Of a stretch of DNA of 64,000 nucleotides, positions 3,592 to 49,708 are shown piece after piece; the stretch's first letter is position 1, and each line of letters opens with the position of its first letter. The stretch is from Alphaproteobacteria bacterium LSUCC0684 (GTDB lineage Bacteria > Pseudomonadota > Alphaproteobacteria > Puniceispirillales > UBA1172), in assembly GCA_041228335.1 (NCBI GenBank), contig CP166130.1, positions 2,513,001 through 2,577,000 of the forward strand, in the 5' to 3' direction. A program made the position numbers and the translations under genes. The notes beneath the pieces are model-generated. The model was not told the origin of the DNA. It saw only the letters and a program-made list of their open reading frames with translations, and searched no databases.

Positions 3592-5220
3592 TTACATATT
3601 CGGGTAGGCTGGCCCGCCCCCGCCTTCCGGCGTGACCCAGGTGATATTCTGGGTGGGGTCCTTGATATCGCAGGTTTTACAGTGAACGCAGTTCTGCGCG
3701 TTGATCTGAAGCCTTGGATTGCTGCCATCGTCGTTGCGCACAATTTCATACACGCCTGCCGGGCAATAGCGTTGCTCCGGGGCATCGTAGATGGCAAGGT
3801 TGTGATCAACAGGTATCGAGGCGTCTTTCAGCTGCAGATGTGCCGGCTGGTTTTCCTCATGATTTGTTCCCGACAGATAGACCGAGGAATTGCGGTCGAA
3901 ACTGACCACATTATCCGGCTTCGGGTATTCGATCTTCGGCATCTGGTTTGCGGGCATGAGCGCTTTGTGGTCTTCATGGTGATGGAAGGTCCATGGGGCG
4001 CGTCCACGCAGGAGATAGGTGTCGATACCGGCATAGGCCATGCCGAACCAGAGCCCTTGCGAGAAGGCTGGCCTGATATTGCGCACCCGGTAGAGTTCAT
4101 CCCAGAGCCAGGAGCTTTCGATCTTCTCGCCATAGGATGCGGGTTCAAGGCCCTCGCCATCAATGGCCTCGAAGACCGCTTCTGCCGCCAGCATACCGGA
4201 TTTCATGGCCGTATGCGTACCCTTGATCTTGGGAACATTGAGAAAACCGGCCGTGCATCCCACCAGACATCCACCGGGGAAAGTCAGTTTCGGGATCGAC
4301 TGGAAGCCGCCTTCGTTGAGGGCGCGTGCACCATAGGAAACCCGGCGGCCTCCTTCAAAGACTTCCCGCACCTTTGGGTGCGTCTTGAAACGCTGGAATT
4401 CCTCGAATGGCGAAAGATGCGGGTTCTTGTAATCAAGCCCGATGACGTAGCCGACCGCAACCTGATTGCCGTTCAGATGATAGAGGAACGATCCGCCATA
4501 GACATCGCTTGAAACAGGCCAGCCCACCGAATGCCAGACTTTTCCGGGCTCGGATTTGGCCGGATCAATATCCCACAACTCCTTGATCCCGATCGCAAAG
4601 GTCTGGGGGTCCTTGCCTTCGCGCAGGTTGAATTTATCAAAAAGAGTTTTGGTCAGATGACCGCGGCAGCCTTCGGCGAAAATCGTCTGCTTGCCGAGGA
4701 GTTCCATTCCCGGCTCATAGCCGTCGGTTTTCTCGCCGTCCTTGCCGATACCCATATCGCCGGTGGCAATCCCGCGGACATGTCCGGCTTCGTCATAAAG
4801 GACTTCAGCAGCCGGGAAGCCGGGATAGATCTCAACGCCAAGGGCTTCGGCCTGTTCGGCCAGCCAGCGGCAGAAATTGCCAAGGCTGATGATGTAATTG
4901 CCGTGGTTGTTCATCTGCGGCGGGGTTGGCAGCCGGAACGAGCTTTTTTCCGTGAGGAACATGAACCGATCTTCGGTCACCGGCGTGTCGAGCGGCGCGC
5001 CAAGGTCTTTCCAGTCAGGCAGAAGTTCATTGAGGGTCCGCGGTTCAAGAACAGCACCGGACAGGATATGCGCCCCCACTTCTGCGCCTTTCTCGATCAG
5101 GCAGACATTGAGCTCGCGCCCGGCATCATTGGCAAGTTGCTTAAGGCGGATGGCAGCAGACAGGCCAGATGGCCCGCCGCCGACGATCACCACATCAAAT
5201 TCCATGGATTCGCGTTCCAT
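3592..5220 (-). CDS. Electron transfer flavoprotein:ubiquinone oxidoreductase
   Basis: A 542-residue membrane-associated flavoprotein that passes electrons from ETF (fatty-acid, amino-acid and choline-type oxidations) to ubiquinone. The N-terminal FAD dinucleotide fold is [16 protein letters not shown] (residues 8-23). The C-terminus has the [4Fe-4S] ligands: one Cys in RYCPAGVYE and three in [13 protein letters not shown], ending [17 protein letters not shown], the family's characteristic tail. Start at 5220 is supported by GGGAGAG just upstream; M6 is an alternative. It is divergent from the uracil-DNA glycosylase gene across about 165 bases. Confidence 0.96.
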
Positions 5221-5385
5221 GTTCTCTCTCCCGTTGCCTGGCCTGGTTGAGCTGCTTGCGTATCAGGCCGGATAGTTTAAAAGACAGGCAGTGAAGACAA
5301 GCTTGCACAACCGGTATCACCCATTACATTCTATATACTAGCTTGCATGGCTTGTGCAAATCGCCATTACCGGACAGAAAATATC

Positions 5386-6213
5386 ATGATGACGCCTCAA
5401 AAAGACCGGAAACTGAGCCAGGCGGAAATGCTGGAAATGCTCCGGCTTCAGGTCGAGGCCGGGGCGGATGAGTGTATTCTTGATCAACCTTCCATCCCTG
5501 CTGCCGCCGGAGATGAGGCAAGAGAAGCCGCAAGCCCCATGGCTTCGGCCCCTTCCGGGGCGGCGCCTGCACCCTGCACCCCATCTGTCGCAAGCCCATC
5601 CAGTCCAGGTCTGCCGCTTGCCCCAGAGGGGTTTGAGACGGCCGAAACCCTTGATGCGCTGAGAGATGCCTGCGCCGCATTTGAAGGATGTGATCTCAAG
5701 AAAACCGCAACCAACATGGTGTTTGCGGATGGCAATCCTGAGGCAAAGGTCATGCTGATCGGCGAAGCTCCGGGCGCGGATGAGGACCGTCAGGGCAAGC
5801 CCTTTGTCGGGGTCAGCGGCCAGTTGCTTGACCGGATGCTTGCCTCTATCGGCCTTGACCGCAGCCAGGTCTATATCACCAATATCCTTCTCTGGCGTCC
5901 GCCGGGAAACCGGACCCCGACCACCGAGGAAATCGCGCTTTTTCTGCCCATTATCCGGCGTCATATTCAGCTTGTTGCCCCGCAGGTTCTGGTAACGCTT
6001 GGCGGGTCAGCTTCAAAAGCCCTCCTGGGCACGTCCACGGGAATCCTCAAATTAAGAGGCCGGTGGCATGGGTTCGACGATGGGGCTGGAAGAGAAATTC
6101 CTCTTCTGCCAACCCTGCATCCAGCCTATCTGCTTCGCACCCCTGGACAGAAAGCCCTTTCCTGGCACGATCTCCGCCTTCTTCGTCGCCAGTTGGCTGA
6201 AGATGGATCTTGA
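5386..6213 (+). CDS. Uracil-DNA glycosylase, family 4-like
   Basis: About 275 residues. It should excise uracil from DNA in base-excision repair. Visible motifs are TATNMVFADGNPEAKVMLIG, then GEAPGADEDRQGKPF (catalytic motif A), WRPPGNRTPT, and TLHPAYLLR (motif B). The N-terminal third is Ala/Pro-rich linker after a helix (LSQAEMLEMLRLQVEAGAD). Oddity: classical family-4 enzymes use four Cys for a 4Fe-4S cluster; only the first pair (CAAFEGC) is present, and the third position is Trp in LLWRPPGN. The start is uncertain, as the frame is open to 5347 and no clear ribosome site is seen. Confidence 0.88.
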   Translation: MMTPQKDRKLSQAEMLEMLRLQVEAGADECILDQPSIPAAAGDEAREAASPMASAPSGAAPAPCTPSVASPSSPGLPLAPEGFETAETLDALRDACAAFEGCDLKKTATNMVFADGNPEAKVMLIGEAPGADEDRQGKPFVGVSGQLLDRMLASIGLDRSQVYITNILLWRPPGNRTPTTEEIALFLPIIRRHIQLVAPQVLVTLGGSASKALLGTSTGILKLRGRWHGFDDGAGREIPLLPTLHPAYLLRTPGQKALSWHDLRLLRRQLAEDGS

Positions 6214-6332
6214 TCTATATGGGCGGGATGAAACCGGCAGGATAAAAAATCTACGCTTTCGGTTGATTGACCAACCGGATGATGCGTAGACTGTTTGGAC
6301 ATCAGTACCATGAATACAGAGATTATTACCGA

Positions 6333-8724: not shown

Positions 8725-9436
8725 CCGGCTGTCCGGACCTGATTTTCATCTTGAAGAGCAGGCACTTGGTGACCCGGGCGAAGATCTTTTTGCTGCGGCG
8801 TTGCCGAAGATGGTGATCGGCATTGATGAAGCTGGCCGAGGCCCCTGGGCTGGCCCCGTCACCGCCGCCGCGGCATGGATCAATCCTGAATCTGCTGGCG
8901 ATCTTCCGGCTGGACTGAACGATTCAAAGACACTTTCGGCAAAGAAGAGGGCAGCGCTATGGCGCGGGCTGCAAGAGCTTGCTGAAAATCCGGCAATGTT
9001 TCGGGTTCATGTGTCATCGGTTGATGCGGCGACAATCGATCAGATGGGGATTCTTCCCGCCACCTTTCGGGCTATGGAAACGGCCCTTTCCGGTCTTGGG
9101 TTTATGGAGAAAAATCTCCATGTTCTTGTTGATGGCTCGCTGGCACCGCCGTTTCCGGTGGTCCGTTCTGCGCAATCCCTTACCGTTCAACCGGTGGTGA
9201 AAGGCGACAGCCGGTCGCTCAGCATCGCGGCGGCATCCATCGCCGCCAAGGAAACCCGTGACGCCATCATGAGAGAGCTCGATCAGTCCTGGCCTCAATA
9301 TGGATGGCGGAAAAACATGGGATACGGCACCCTGCCCCATGCCGAAACACTGGCAAGCCAGGGGCCCTGCCTGCATCATCGCCTCACGTTCCGGCCGGTG
9401 GCACGCGCCGCCGCTCGCCATGGCTATACCAGATAA
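8708..9436 (+). CDS. rnhB: Ribonuclease HII
   Basis: 242 residues from a GTG. It removes ribonucleotides and RNA primers from DNA. Active-site blocks are VIGIDEAGRGPWAGPV (Asp and Glu), LNDSKTLSAKKR, VLVDGS and YGTLPHAETL. The GTG at 8708 is preferred over the ATG at 8813 because PDFHLEEQAL resembles the usual RNase HII N-terminus before the DEAGRG strand. The terminal HRLTF differs slightly from the usual HRRSF. Confidence 0.92.
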   Translation: MAGKADRLSGPDFHLEEQALGDPGEDLFAAALPKMVIGIDEAGRGPWAGPVTAAAAWINPESAGDLPAGLNDSKTLSAKKRAALWRGLQELAENPAMFRVHVSSVDAATIDQMGILPATFRAMETALSGLGFMEKNLHVLVDGSLAPPFPVVRSAQSLTVQPVVKGDSRSLSIAAASIAAKETRDAIMRELDQSWPQYGWRKNMGYGTLPHAETLASQGPCLHHRLTFRPVARAAARHGYTR

Positions 9437-9510
9437 AGGTATCGGGCCTGCCGCCAACACCATATATAGAAATCACTTTCACTTCATGTTTTAAAGCATT
9501 GACGAATAAT

Positions 9511-9515
9511 GATTC
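9511..9515. promoter_or_regulatory. GANTC methylation site in the ccrM leader
   Basis: GATTC lies 20 bases upstream of the probable ccrM start, in the 98-base gap after rnhB. It is the recognition site of the encoded methylase. In Caulobacter, methylation of GANTC sites at its own promoter restricts ccrM transcription; a similar loop here is inference. One five-base site is easily found by chance. Confidence 0.35.
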
Positions 9516-9534
9516 TTCGGCAAATCATTGCTTC

Positions 9535-10671
9535 ATGAATGCGATCAATACAAAATCATCCGGCTCAAATATTCCTCTCGAAAAGGCAGAGATGAGCGTT
9601 TTTGTCGGCGACTGTCTTGAGGTCATGCGACGTCTTCCCGATGCGTCGGTTGATCTTGTTTTTGCCGATCCGCCCTACAATCTTCAGCTCAGCGGCGCGG
9701 TGCTCACCCGTCCGGATGAAACCGCTGTTTCCGCGGTGCTCGAAGACTGGGACAAGTTTGATACATTCCGCGCCTATGATATGTTCACCCAGGCCTGGCT
9801 TGAAGAAGCCCGGCGTCTTCTCAAGCCGGATGGTACGATCTGGGTGATCGGCTCGTATCATAATATCTACCGGGTCGGCACCATCCTGCAGAATACCGGT
9901 TTCTGGATGCTCAACGATATCATCTGGCGGAAAACCAATCCGATGCCGAATTTTCGTGGCCGACGTTTTACCAATGCCCATGAAATTCTGCTCTGGGCTG
10001 CGCGGGATGCCAGATCTCGCTACACGTTCAATTACGAAAGCATGAAAACCCTCAACGACGATATTCAGATGCGGTCGGACTGGCTGCTGCCGATCTGCAA
10101 CGGCGGTGAGCGGATCAAGGATCAGGGTAACAAGGCGCATCCCACCCAGAAACCCGAAGCATTGCTCGCGCGGGTGCTGATGGCGTCAACCAATCCGGGT
10201 GATCTGGTGCTCGATCCGTTCTTTGGTACTGGAACGACGGGGGCGGTTGCGAAAAAACTGCACCGTAGGTTTATCGGCATCGAACGTGAGGAAAGCTACG
10301 CCGCCATCGCCCGCAGCAGAATAGGCAAGGTCCGGCCCATTGAAGAGCTGGAGATGCTGGCCGCACCCTCGAAACGTACCCAGGCCAAGATCCCCTTTGG
10401 CACTCTTCTCGAACAGGGAATGATCAAGCCCGGCGAAACACTGATCTGCGCCAAAGGCAAGCTCAGGGCCCGGGTCCGGGCGGATGGCAGCCTGATTGAA
10501 GACACGCCATCCACCCTGCCAAGACAGGGCTCGATCCATTCTCTTGGTGCCAAGCTTCAGGGACGTGAGACCTGTAATGGCTGGGCGTTCTGGCACCTCA
10601 AACGTGGAAAACAGGTTATTCCGATTGACGATCTGCGGGCTGAAATGCGGCTCAAGCTTGGTGAGACCTGA
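9535..10671 (+). CDS. ccrM: Cell-cycle-regulated adenine-N6 DNA methyltransferase (GANTC)
   Basis: 378 residues from the ATG at 9535; an ATG at 9592 preceded by AAAGG is an alternative. The catalytic motif DPPYNLQLSG comes near the N-terminus (motif IV before the SAM motif, beta-class order). DPFFGTGTTGAVAKKL is the SAM-binding loop, with KAHPTQKPEALLARV between. The C-terminal extension with GTLLEQGMIKPGETL and NGWAFWHLKRG is the DNA-recognition tail typical of alphaproteobacterial CcrM. It methylates hemimethylated GANTC after replication. There is no restriction partner nearby. Its 3' end overlaps the convergent MFS gene by 20 bases. Confidence 0.95.
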   Translation: MNAINTKSSGSNIPLEKAEMSVFVGDCLEVMRRLPDASVDLVFADPPYNLQLSGAVLTRPDETAVSAVLEDWDKFDTFRAYDMFTQAWLEEARRLLKPDGTIWVIGSYHNIYRVGTILQNTGFWMLNDIIWRKTNPMPNFRGRRFTNAHEILLWAARDARSRYTFNYESMKTLNDDIQMRSDWLLPICNGGERIKDQGNKAHPTQKPEALLARVLMASTNPGDLVLDPFFGTGTTGAVAKKLHRRFIGIEREESYAAIARSRIGKVRPIEELEMLAAPSKRTQAKIPFGTLLEQGMIKPGETLICAKGKLRARVRADGSLIEDTPSTLPRQGSIHSLGAKLQGRETCNGWAFWHLKRGKQVIPIDDLRAEMRLKLGET

Positions 10672-46529: not shown

Positions 46530-46590
46530 ATTCCCGTCCGCTCAATCTAGGATAGTCACCGTAGCAGGTTTTCATTTCAGGGGGATGAAG

Positions 46591-48711
46591 ATGACTACGC
46601 TTGCAACCATGCCGCTGGAAAAACTGCCGCTGGCGTCGATTGATCTTGAAACAACCGGCCTTTCACCTGCCCGGGACCGCATTGTCCAGATCGGCATGAC
46701 CGATCCCTGGGATGAAACGCATCAGCTCGATCTGCTTGTCAATCCGGGTATGGCCATTCCTGAAAAAAGCACGACCATCCACGGCATTGACGATCAGCAG
46801 GTCAAGACGGCCCAAAGCATCGCCCATGTCCTGCCCCATTTCCGCGCTCGGCTCAACGGGCGGGTGCTGATCGGCTATAATATCGGCTTCGATCTGGCGG
46901 TGTTGTCGGCCGAAGCGGAAAGATACGGGCTTGAATGGGAATGGAGTGCCGCTCTATGCGTCCGCCAGCTCGGGGTGATTGCCCTCGGCAATGAGGCGAT
47001 GTTGATGATGGGGGATCTCAACGCCCTGGCGGAACATTACGATATCAGCATCAGTGATCGGCACACCGCCCTTGGGGATGCCAGAATCACGGGCCGGATC
47101 TTTCGGGCGATGCTGCCTGATCTCAACGGTAAATCCATCGTCACGCTGGCCGATGCATTGCGTTCGGTATCCGGTCTTGATGATCTGAGGCTGTCATCGA
47201 CCCGGGCCGGGTGGGTGGATGTGGCAAGCGGGCTGTATCAGCCGTCGCAGACCCGGCCGGTGGAACGCATCGACCCCTATCCCTACCGCCACCGGATCAG
47301 GGAGATCATGCTGACGGATCCGGTTGTCCTGCCGCCGGAAACACCCATCCAGATAGCCGCCGTGACCATGAAGGATCGAAAAACGGACTGTGTCTTCATC
47401 GGCCCTTCCACGAATAAGATTGATGGCATTGTCTCCGAACGTGATCTCGTTCACACCATGGCGCTGCCAATCGAGGAAGTCGGGCATGCACGGGCAATCC
47501 CGATCGGTCAGGTCATGTCGTCGCCGGTGATCACGGTCCGTGAGGATGATTTCATGCATGTGGCGCTGGGCCGGATAAGCCGGCTTGATATCCGCCATCT
47601 TGGTGTTGTGGGCGCGTCAGGGGAGCTGGTGGGCTGGATTTCCACGCGTGAGCTGATCCGCCAGCGCGTGACCGGCGCCATGGTGATCGGTGACCAGATT
47701 GCGACGGCCCGGGATTCAGCGGAAATTGCCGCGGCATTGAAGGCATTGCCCATGCTGGCAAGCTCCCTTCTTTCCGATGGCGTTGAGGGCCATCTGATTG
47801 CCGCGGTGATCAGCAGCCAGTATCGGGCGGCGCTGGCCCAGGCCGCCCAACTGGCCGAAGCCAGGATGGAAACGCCGCCGCCAAGGCCCTATGCCGTTCT
47901 GGTGCTGGGCTCGGCCGGGCGTGGCGAAAGCCTGCTTGCCGCCGATCAGGACCACGCGATCATCTATGACGATGGTATCGAAGGGGATGGCGCAATGCCC
48001 GATGATGCCGCGGTGCAGGCCTGGTATGAAACCCTTGGCGGGCATATTTCCGATTTCCTTGATGAGGCCGGAATTCCCTATTGCCAGGGCGGGGTGATGT
48101 CGCGTCACGCCAAATGGTGCCGATCGATTTCCGGCTGGCGTAGCGCCCTCAGTGACTGGGTGAAACTGGCACGGCCGGAAGATCTGTTGAGTGTTGATAT
48201 CTTCTTTGATTTCGAGCCTGTCTATGGCCAGGTGGAACTGGCCTCCCTGTTGCGGCTTGCCATGGAAGGGCGGGCCACACGGCGGCCGGATTTTCTTAAA
48301 AGGCTGGCGGGAAGCGCGGCCAATGCCCAGGCCGGAACGACACTGTTCGGCGGCCTGAAGACGGAGGCCGGCCGCTACGATATCAAAAAATATCTGCTTC
48401 TGCCTTTGATCGAAACCTTGCGCGTTCTTTCCATCTCACGCGGAATTTCGGAACGCAGCAGCGCCCAACGTGCCGAAGCGCTGTATCGAACGAATACCGT
48501 GCCGCCGGAAGTACCCCTCCTGGCCGAAGATATTCATTTCGCGCTGAAACTTGTTCTCCGCCAGCAGATCAGTGATATATCCGCAGGACTGCCGCCCGGA
48601 ACAAGGATTGAAATCACCGCATTGAGCCCGGCGGAAACAAAATTGCTCAAATCGATCCGCGGGCGGGTCAACCGGCTTGAGCCGATGCTTCAGGATTGCC
48701 TTTTCGGGTAA
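46591..48711 (+). CDS. Exonuclease-CBS-DUF294 nucleotidyltransferase fusion
   Basis: About 706 residues from ATG 46591 (CAGGGGG six bases upstream; ATG 46585 also possible). Three parts. Residues about 10-180 are a DnaQ-like 3'-5' exonuclease: SIDLETTGLSPARDRIVQIG, LIGYNIGFDLAVLSAEA and SDRHTALGDARITGRIF give the DEDD(h) set. Residues about 225-355 are a CBS pair (IREIMLTDPVVLPPETPIQI; IGQVMSSPVITVREDDFMHV). The rest is a DUF294 nucleotidyltransferase with LVLGSAGRGESLLAADQDHA, i.e. GSxGRxE and DxD. CBS pairs usually sense adenyl nucleotides. Substrate and role unknown. Confidence 0.88.
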   Translation: MTTLATMPLEKLPLASIDLETTGLSPARDRIVQIGMTDPWDETHQLDLLVNPGMAIPEKSTTIHGIDDQQVKTAQSIAHVLPHFRARLNGRVLIGYNIGFDLAVLSAEAERYGLEWEWSAALCVRQLGVIALGNEAMLMMGDLNALAEHYDISISDRHTALGDARITGRIFRAMLPDLNGKSIVTLADALRSVSGLDDLRLSSTRAGWVDVASGLYQPSQTRPVERIDPYPYRHRIREIMLTDPVVLPPETPIQIAAVTMKDRKTDCVFIGPSTNKIDGIVSERDLVHTMALPIEEVGHARAIPIGQVMSSPVITVREDDFMHVALGRISRLDIRHLGVVGASGELVGWISTRELIRQRVTGAMVIGDQIATARDSAEIAAALKALPMLASSLLSDGVEGHLIAAVISSQYRAALAQAAQLAEARMETPPPRPYAVLVLGSAGRGESLLAADQDHAIIYDDGIEGDGAMPDDAAVQAWYETLGGHISDFLDEAGIPYCQGGVMSRHAKWCRSISGWRSALSDWVKLARPEDLLSVDIFFDFEPVYGQVELASLLRLAMEGRATRRPDFLKRLAGSAANAQAGTTLFGGLKTEAGRYDIKKYLLLPLIETLRVLSISRGISERSSAQRAEALYRTNTVPPEVPLLAEDIHFALKLVLRQQISDISAGLPPGTRIEITALSPAETKLLKSIRGRVNRLEPMLQDCLFG

Positions 48712-48741: not shown

Positions 48742-48757
48742 TTAAGGATTTGTTAAC
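48742..48757. promoter_or_regulatory. Consensus CtrA box upstream of the ankyrin gene
   Basis: TTAAGGATTTGTTAAC is an exact match to the full alphaproteobacterial CtrA consensus TTAA-N7-TTAAC. It lies in the gap after the exonuclease fusion, 41 bases upstream of a 16-codon leader ORF and 88 bases upstream of the ankyrin ATG. No other full site was found in the window's intergenic DNA by eye. Confidence 0.6.
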
Positions 48758-48770
48758 CATCCTTCTGCTA

Positions 48771-48775
48771 GAGTC
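48771..48775. promoter_or_regulatory. GANTC site next to the CtrA box
   Basis: GAGTC, a CcrM methylation site, lies 13 bases downstream of the CtrA box and 23 bases upstream of the leader ORF, where a -10 region would be expected. Co-location with a CtrA site is typical of cell-cycle genes, but a single site is common by chance. Confidence 0.35.
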
Positions 48776-48797
48776 TCGGCAAGGAAGGTGAGCCGCC

Positions 48798-48848
48798 ATG
48801 CGCTGGCTCGTGCCCCGTAAAGGGGAGATAACAATGGAGGGAAGATGA
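48798..48848 (+). CDS. 16-codon leader ORF overlapping the ankyrin start
   Basis: ATG at 48798, preceded by AAGGAAGGTG, encodes MRWLVPRKGEITMEGR and stops at a TGA that shares bases with the ankyrin ATG (ATGA at 48845-48848). A CCCC/GGGG hairpin lies inside it. Its stop being fused to the next start suggests translational coupling or control. Whether it is translated is not known. Confidence 0.4.
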   Translation: MRWLVPRKGEITMEGR

Positions 48849-49708
48849 TGCTTCGCAGGATGGTTCAAACTATATTGAAGAAGGTACATCTTCTGGTGGA
48901 GATGAAACCAGACGTTGCTACGGTCAAAGAGAACCCATGCGCTGGATTGGATGATGAGGAGTGGAGGAAAAATGCTAGCGCTGAGAGCGTGAAAGCCGAA
49001 TTGGCAGAGGAAGCCGACGCGAACGTCCACGCCGAGGATGGCATCACCCCGCTCCATCATGAGGCGGCATTCGGCACGTCTGAAAATATCCAAGCACTCA
49101 TTAAGGCCGGGGCAGAGATAGAAGCCCGCACCCTAAGAGGCTATACCCCGCTTCATTTGGCGGCTGCAGAGGGCACACCTGAAAATATCCAAGCACTCAT
49201 CAAGGCTGGAGCAGAGGTAAACGCCCGGACCAAGAATGACGGCACCTCGCTTCATCTGGCGGCGGCAGATGGCACGCCTGAGAATATCCGCGTGCTCATC
49301 AAGGCCGGGGCAGAGGTAGACGCCCGCACCGAGTATGGCGGCACCCCGCTTTATCAGGCGGCGGCAGTCGGAACGCCTGAGAATATCCGTATGCTCATCA
49401 AGGCTGGGGCGGAGATTGAGGCCTGTAGCGAGAATGGCACCACCCCGCTTCATGCGGCGGCTGGATTAGGCACACCTGAGAATGTCCGTACGCTCATCAA
49501 GGCCGGGGCGAATACCAGAGCCCGCACTGAAGGCGGGGGATTCCCGCAGATCTGGCCGAAGACAACGATAAGGTCAAAGGCACTGATGCCTATTGGCAAT
49601 TGCATGAAGCGCGGTATGACTAAAGTTGAACCTATCTTTTCGGGTAGTCTTTCTACTCAACCCAGGCAGAGCTTCGCCGCCGCATATCGCCATTCATCAT
49701 GCTGCTGA
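48845..49708 (+). CDS. Ankyrin-repeat protein with an apparent 3' frameshift
   Basis: The frame as read gives 287 residues: about 75 N-terminal residues, then five to six 33-residue ankyrin repeats (TPLHLAAAEGTPENIQALIK type) up to residue 231. After a run of five Gs (49535-49539) the frame yields an unrelated, Ser/Arg-rich tail to 49708 that overlaps the next gene. One base less in frame, codons from 49540 read IPADLAEDND...GTDAYWQLHEARYD and stop at TAA 49621-49623, which looks like a genuine ankyrin C-terminus. So one base is missing, by mutation, phase variation or sequence error. GGAGGGAAG precedes the ATG. Ankyrins bind proteins; no signal peptide is obvious. Confidence 0.8.
   Translation: MMLRRMVQTILKKVHLLVEMKPDVATVKENPCAGLDDEEWRKNASAESVKAELAEEADANVHAEDGITPLHHEAAFGTSENIQALIKAGAEIEARTLRGYTPLHLAAAEGTPENIQALIKAGAEVNARTKNDGTSLHLAAADGTPENIRVLIKAGAEVDARTEYGGTPLYQAAAVGTPENIRMLIKAGAEIEACSENGTTPLHAAAGLGTPENVRTLIKAGANTRARTEGGGFPQIWPKTTIRSKALMPIGNCMKRGMTKVEPIFSGSLSTQPRQSFAAAYRHSSCC
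49036..49534 (+). repeat. 99-bp tandem coding repeats of the ankyrin gene
   Basis: The block GA[AG]AAT[AG]TCC recurs at 49082, 49181, 49280, 49379 and 49478, exactly 99 bases (33 codons) apart, with high nucleotide identity between units. This close identity suggests recent duplication or gene conversion among repeats. Confidence 0.9.

Follow-up and report, generated by a model that had tools for sequence, protein, structure and literature searches.

The locus studied here lies in a window of 64,000 nucleotides, the whole stretch of DNA that was analysed, from a SAR116/Puniceispirillales genome of 2.70 Mb in a single contig. SAR116 is an abundant clade of the ocean. On the forward strand of the window, a gene for an exonuclease (DnaQ)/CBS/DUF294 protein (46585-48711, assigned by Pfam) is followed by an ankyrin-repeat open reading frame (48845-49708, 287 amino acids as called, Pfam Ank_2 E-value 1.8e-29). 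The sequence TTAAGGATTTGTTAAC (48742-48757, forward strand) is located between the stop of the former, which ends 30 bases before it, and the start of the latter. It is an exact match to TTAA-N7-TTAAC, the full box of CtrA, a master regulator across the Alphaproteobacteria.

This box is both the sole exact TTAA-N7-TTAAC and the sole TTAA-N7-TTAA in the 64-kb window, for which dinucleotide shuffles give expectations of 0.03 and 0.16, respectively. Thirteen bases past the box lies GAGTC (48771-48775, forward strand), a GANTC site of the CcrM type. Both the exact consensus match and the GANTC site at this distance had been described in the first-pass annotation, and both were borne out. The ankyrin promoter region carries the full TTAA-N7-TTAA motif of CtrA-activated promoters, and a scan of the region for sigma-70 promoters and terminators returned nothing, including no sigma-70 -35/-10 pair. 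An Rfam scan of the window found two tRNAs only, and no known riboswitch or leader RNA.

N7 boxes across genomes

The genome scan for TTAAN7TTAAC that the first-pass annotation had proposed revealed an excess of the N7 spacing. The whole genome contains 24 copies of TTAA-N7-TTAAC, making N7 the modal spacing, whereas the other spacings between 2 and 14 have 4.9 copies on average and no more than 12 (pattern searches, strand-counted, with palindromic sites counted on both strands). A similar excess occurs in the relative G002, with 34 N7 boxes as opposed to at most 12 for any other spacing. In the relative G003, N7 is not the modal spacing (8, versus 12 for N6), yet both ankyrin genes of that genome carry an N7 box. 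The ctrA gene itself has no box in the 1 kb upstream of it.

Ankyrin genes as a class

There are four ankyrin loci in this genome and three of them carry an N7 box, the fourth being without one. The two box-bearing loci outside the window, paralogues A and B, are found at 1.21-1.22 Mb and have the boxes TTAACCATTTATTAAC and TTAACTATTTCTTAAT. In G007 and G005 the DUF294 orthologue is not followed by the ankyrin gene, nor does that gene precede xth at loci L064 and L065; the comparison was therefore based on paralogues rather than on conserved synteny. For this comparison 25 ankyrin genes were found by Pfam in nine genomes, with neighbouring open reading frames as controls and a zone of -200 to +60 for both; being paralogues, the ankyrin genes are not independent samples.

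Within the family, which here comprises three genera, conservation upstream of homologous genes was evident: an N7 box precedes 9 of 14 ankyrin genes as compared to 3 of 135 neighbouring-gene controls (p=5e-9), and the genes behind the three control matches seem to lie divergently to a box-bearing ankyrin gene and to share its box. When the same 14 ankyrin genes were searched with control spacings, 5, 6 and 9 gave no match and 8 gave one. The conservation in relatives on which the first-pass annotation had made its reading depend is thus present in this family. Ankyrin genes and controls do not differ significantly in the other families of the order (2 of 11 ankyrin genes, 8 of 107 controls), and a class-wide sample of 30 ankyrin loci, several of them truncated ahead of the gene start, showed no N7 box. 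The link between box and ankyrin genes is therefore lineage-specific.

State of the ankyrin gene

Many of the ankyrin relatives look exported by eye, having a hydrophobic N-terminus resembling a signal peptide and, in several of them, a C-x-x-L-C motif. The copy in the window has neither the signal peptide nor the second conserved cysteine. It is preceded by a 16-codon upstream reading frame, MRWLVPRKGEITMEGR (48798-48848, forward strand), which as read from the sequence stands behind a AAGGAAGG-type ribosome site and has a stop overlapping the ankyrin start; this frame is possibly the remnant of a lost signal-peptide start. At the other end of the gene, to judge from translation in three frames and from how paralogue B ends, the family C-terminus leaves the frame at or near a GGGGG tract (49535-49539, forward strand), with the family-like end PADLAEDNDKVKGTDAYWQLHEARYD read in another frame up to a stop at 49623. 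In paralogue B (locus L175, reverse strand 4490-6247; G000:C1, about 1211254-1213011), about 116 codons are followed by an in-frame TAA, and beyond it lie more intact repeats. The state of the window gene may point to decay, or in part to sequencing error.

It is thus conceivable, if clearly the lesser possibility, that the promoter is functional while the gene it serves is a pseudogene and the site a relic. The missing signal peptide, the lost cysteine and the frameshifted C-terminus are in keeping with such an explanation, as is the in-frame stop of paralogue B, but about 690 bp of ankyrin repeats are still open in the window copy, and the box is intact in all nine of the box-bearing ankyrin promoters. 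Separately, the ankyrin protein also matched NCBIfam models of secreted effectors, but these matches are all far below cut-off and reflect generic repeats, so that an effector role is not proposed.

Promoter geometry

Counted from the first base of the box, a TANNNT hexamer begins 26-27 nt downstream in every one of 10 promoters, namely those of the nine ankyrin genes and one Sel1 gene. When the downstream sequence was shuffled, never more than 4 of the 10 promoters had TANNNT at offset 26 or 27 in 20,000 trials, a figure that serves as a guide since the choice of hexamer followed inspection of the promoters. In the window, the likely -10 hexamer is TAGAGT (48769-48774, forward strand), whose first base is 27 nt after that of the box, and in paralogues A and B the distance from the box to the corresponding GCTAG/GCTAC is equal to that of the window copy. 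With the hexamer set at -12 to -7, the box is predicted to start at -38/-39 among these promoters and at about -39 in the window, a placing that follows the mapped promoters of Caulobacter (PMC4287350). Full CtrA motifs that activate in Caulobacter have their 5' base near -35, and at -39 in ctrA P2 (Zhou et al. 2015, PMC4287350).

Inheritance of the boxes together with duplicated ankyrin genes, and their retention through recent descent alone rather than selection, would be in keeping with the genes being paralogues. This explanation also fits the two promoter pairs that can be clearly aligned (C41/C64 of G003 and C108/C4b of G002). For most promoter pairs, however, the flanking DNA is unalignable while the box and its -10 geometry persist, and we therefore conclude that the box outlived its surroundings and consider recent descent alone unlikely.

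Regulators and the GANTC site

The presence of ctrA, without which the first-pass reading would have failed, was confirmed. The genome encodes a CtrA orthologue with 52% identity over 224 residues to Caulobacter CtrA. The stretch KIIDVFICKLRKKLA of its DNA-binding domain is identical to that of Caulobacter, and the recognition helix is conserved. GcrA is also encoded. The CcrM methylase that had been reported in the window was found as a CcrM-like adenine methylase (9304-10671, forward strand), which matches the NCBIfam CcrM model with an E-value of 6.4e-174 and 578 bits, under the 830-bit cut-off of that model. Because the NCBIfam scores of both proteins are below the cut-offs of their models, which are named for Rhodobacterales (CtrA) and for Caulobacter (CcrM), both were assigned as orthologues by best match and key residues. 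ChpT (PF10090) and SciP (PF06627), which a CtrA circuit driving the cell cycle as in Caulobacter would be expected to have, had no Pfam match in the genome at an E-value of 1e-3. CtrA may therefore not run a Caulobacter-style cell cycle in this bacterium.

GANTC is depleted about 3.6-fold in the window (88 sites seen, 317 expected), and this depletion is stronger between genes than within them. The GAGTC beside the box overlaps the -10 hexamer. A dual promoter, in which CtrA acts together with CcrM and GcrA and the methylation state at the -10 sets the timing in the cell cycle, would make use of this overlap and of the encoded GcrA and CcrM-like enzyme, and intergenic GANTC sites are rare enough (one per 1438 bases) that the chance of one within 20 nt is about 1.4%. 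Yet the overlap needs no more than a C after TAGAGT, ChpT and SciP were not found, and GANTC is not a common property of the homologous promoters: from -40 to +110 of the box, the site is missing in all eight of the other ankyrin promoters that carry a box. These points make a dual promoter improbable, although an effect confined to this one gene is conceivable, and GANTC most likely arose here as a side effect of the -10 sequence. That a ccrM gene is encoded at a distance of about 38 kb is no evidence on the ankyrin promoter.

The first-pass annotation had proposed that CtrA and CcrM together place the ankyrin locus under cell-cycle control. Its CtrA part is well supported by the conserved CtrA helix, the N7 enrichment, the count of 9 of 14 against 3 of 135 and the fixed -10 spacing, from which we infer CtrA control of the gene; its CcrM part is unsupported, with GANTC in 0 of 8 other promoters and, here, inside the -10 hexamer. 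A chance pair of TTAA sequences with no regulatory role, for which one could cite the single site, the partly degenerate look of the window gene and the AT-rich surroundings of some genomic N7 boxes, is very improbable given the low expectation in the window, the genome-wide N7 enrichment, the ankyrin association in three genera and the constant distance to the -10.

A proposed ankyrin branch of the CtrA regulon

Taken together, the site is quite probably a genuine CtrA-activated promoter element and one of a set shared by ankyrin genes, and our best reading is that these would form a branch of a CtrA regulon, made up of ankyrin genes, that has gone unreported. The box, its enrichment, the ankyrin link, the fixed -10 spacing and the CtrA gene were computed, and from them we infer binding, activation, timing and start site as follows. 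Bound to the TTAA-N7-TTAAC box, at about -39 to -24, phosphorylated CtrA would stand in for the missing -35 hexamer and bring the housekeeping RNA polymerase to the -10 TAGAGT, such that transcription would start near 48781 and the ankyrin gene would be expressed. According to this model, the CtrA regulon of this SAR116 family would have, as a recurrent branch, ankyrin-repeat proteins that are mostly exported.

The predicted promoter resembles the 52 full-motif promoters of Caulobacter, ctrA P2 being among those discussed, in its TTAA-N7-TTAA motif, the lack of a -35 hexamer, the CtrA recognition helix and the position of the 5' base, predicted at -38/-39 here (PMC4287350). It differs in its predicted targets, which are ankyrin-repeat genes, and in that ChpT and SciP were not detected; the word ankyrin is absent from the main text of Zhou et al. 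2015 (PMC4287350). The promoter also resembles Caulobacter promoters of the CcrM/GANTC (GcrA) type, such as ctrA P1 (PMC4287350), in having a GANTC near the predicted start in a genome with GcrA and a CcrM-like enzyme, but here the GANTC overlaps the -10 and is not common to the paralogous promoters. The CtrA regulons of Rhodobacterales (Dinoroseobacter shibae, PMC6473078) are similar in that CtrA boxes are predicted before genes for regulation, motility and the cell surface in a setting that is not of the Caulobacter type. A search of a literature library found no paper on CtrA targets in the SAR116 clade and, as judged by titles, none was recognised that links CtrA to ankyrin genes in free-living Alphaproteobacteria.

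A conserved link between CtrA and ankyrin genes, if true, would tie a family of protein-interaction proteins to a switch that elsewhere serves motility and development. With this in mind, one may speculate, with some doubt, that in one SAR116 family a CtrA lacking detectable ChpT or SciP took over a repertoire of exported ankyrin-repeat proteins as well as Sel1, adhesin-like, secretion and competence genes, becoming a switch for surface or interaction proteins and not for the cell cycle. Our results also supply a list of candidate CtrA promoters. Genes adjoining N7 boxes include dprA, rpoN and those for a Sel1-repeat protein, an outer-membrane efflux protein, a cadherin/Ig-like (adhesin-like) protein, a subtilase, a DNA methylase and a histidine kinase. 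The boxes beside the adhesin-like cadherin/Ig, outer-membrane efflux, Sel1-repeat and subtilase genes suggest a surface-protein regulon.

The D. shibae paper, which mentions no ankyrin gene, gives a LexA site for the competence gene dprA (PMC6473078). Here, a TTAA-N7-TTAA box precedes dprA both in this genome (locus L011) and in the relative G033 (locus L190), and dprA may be a conserved CtrA target in the two.
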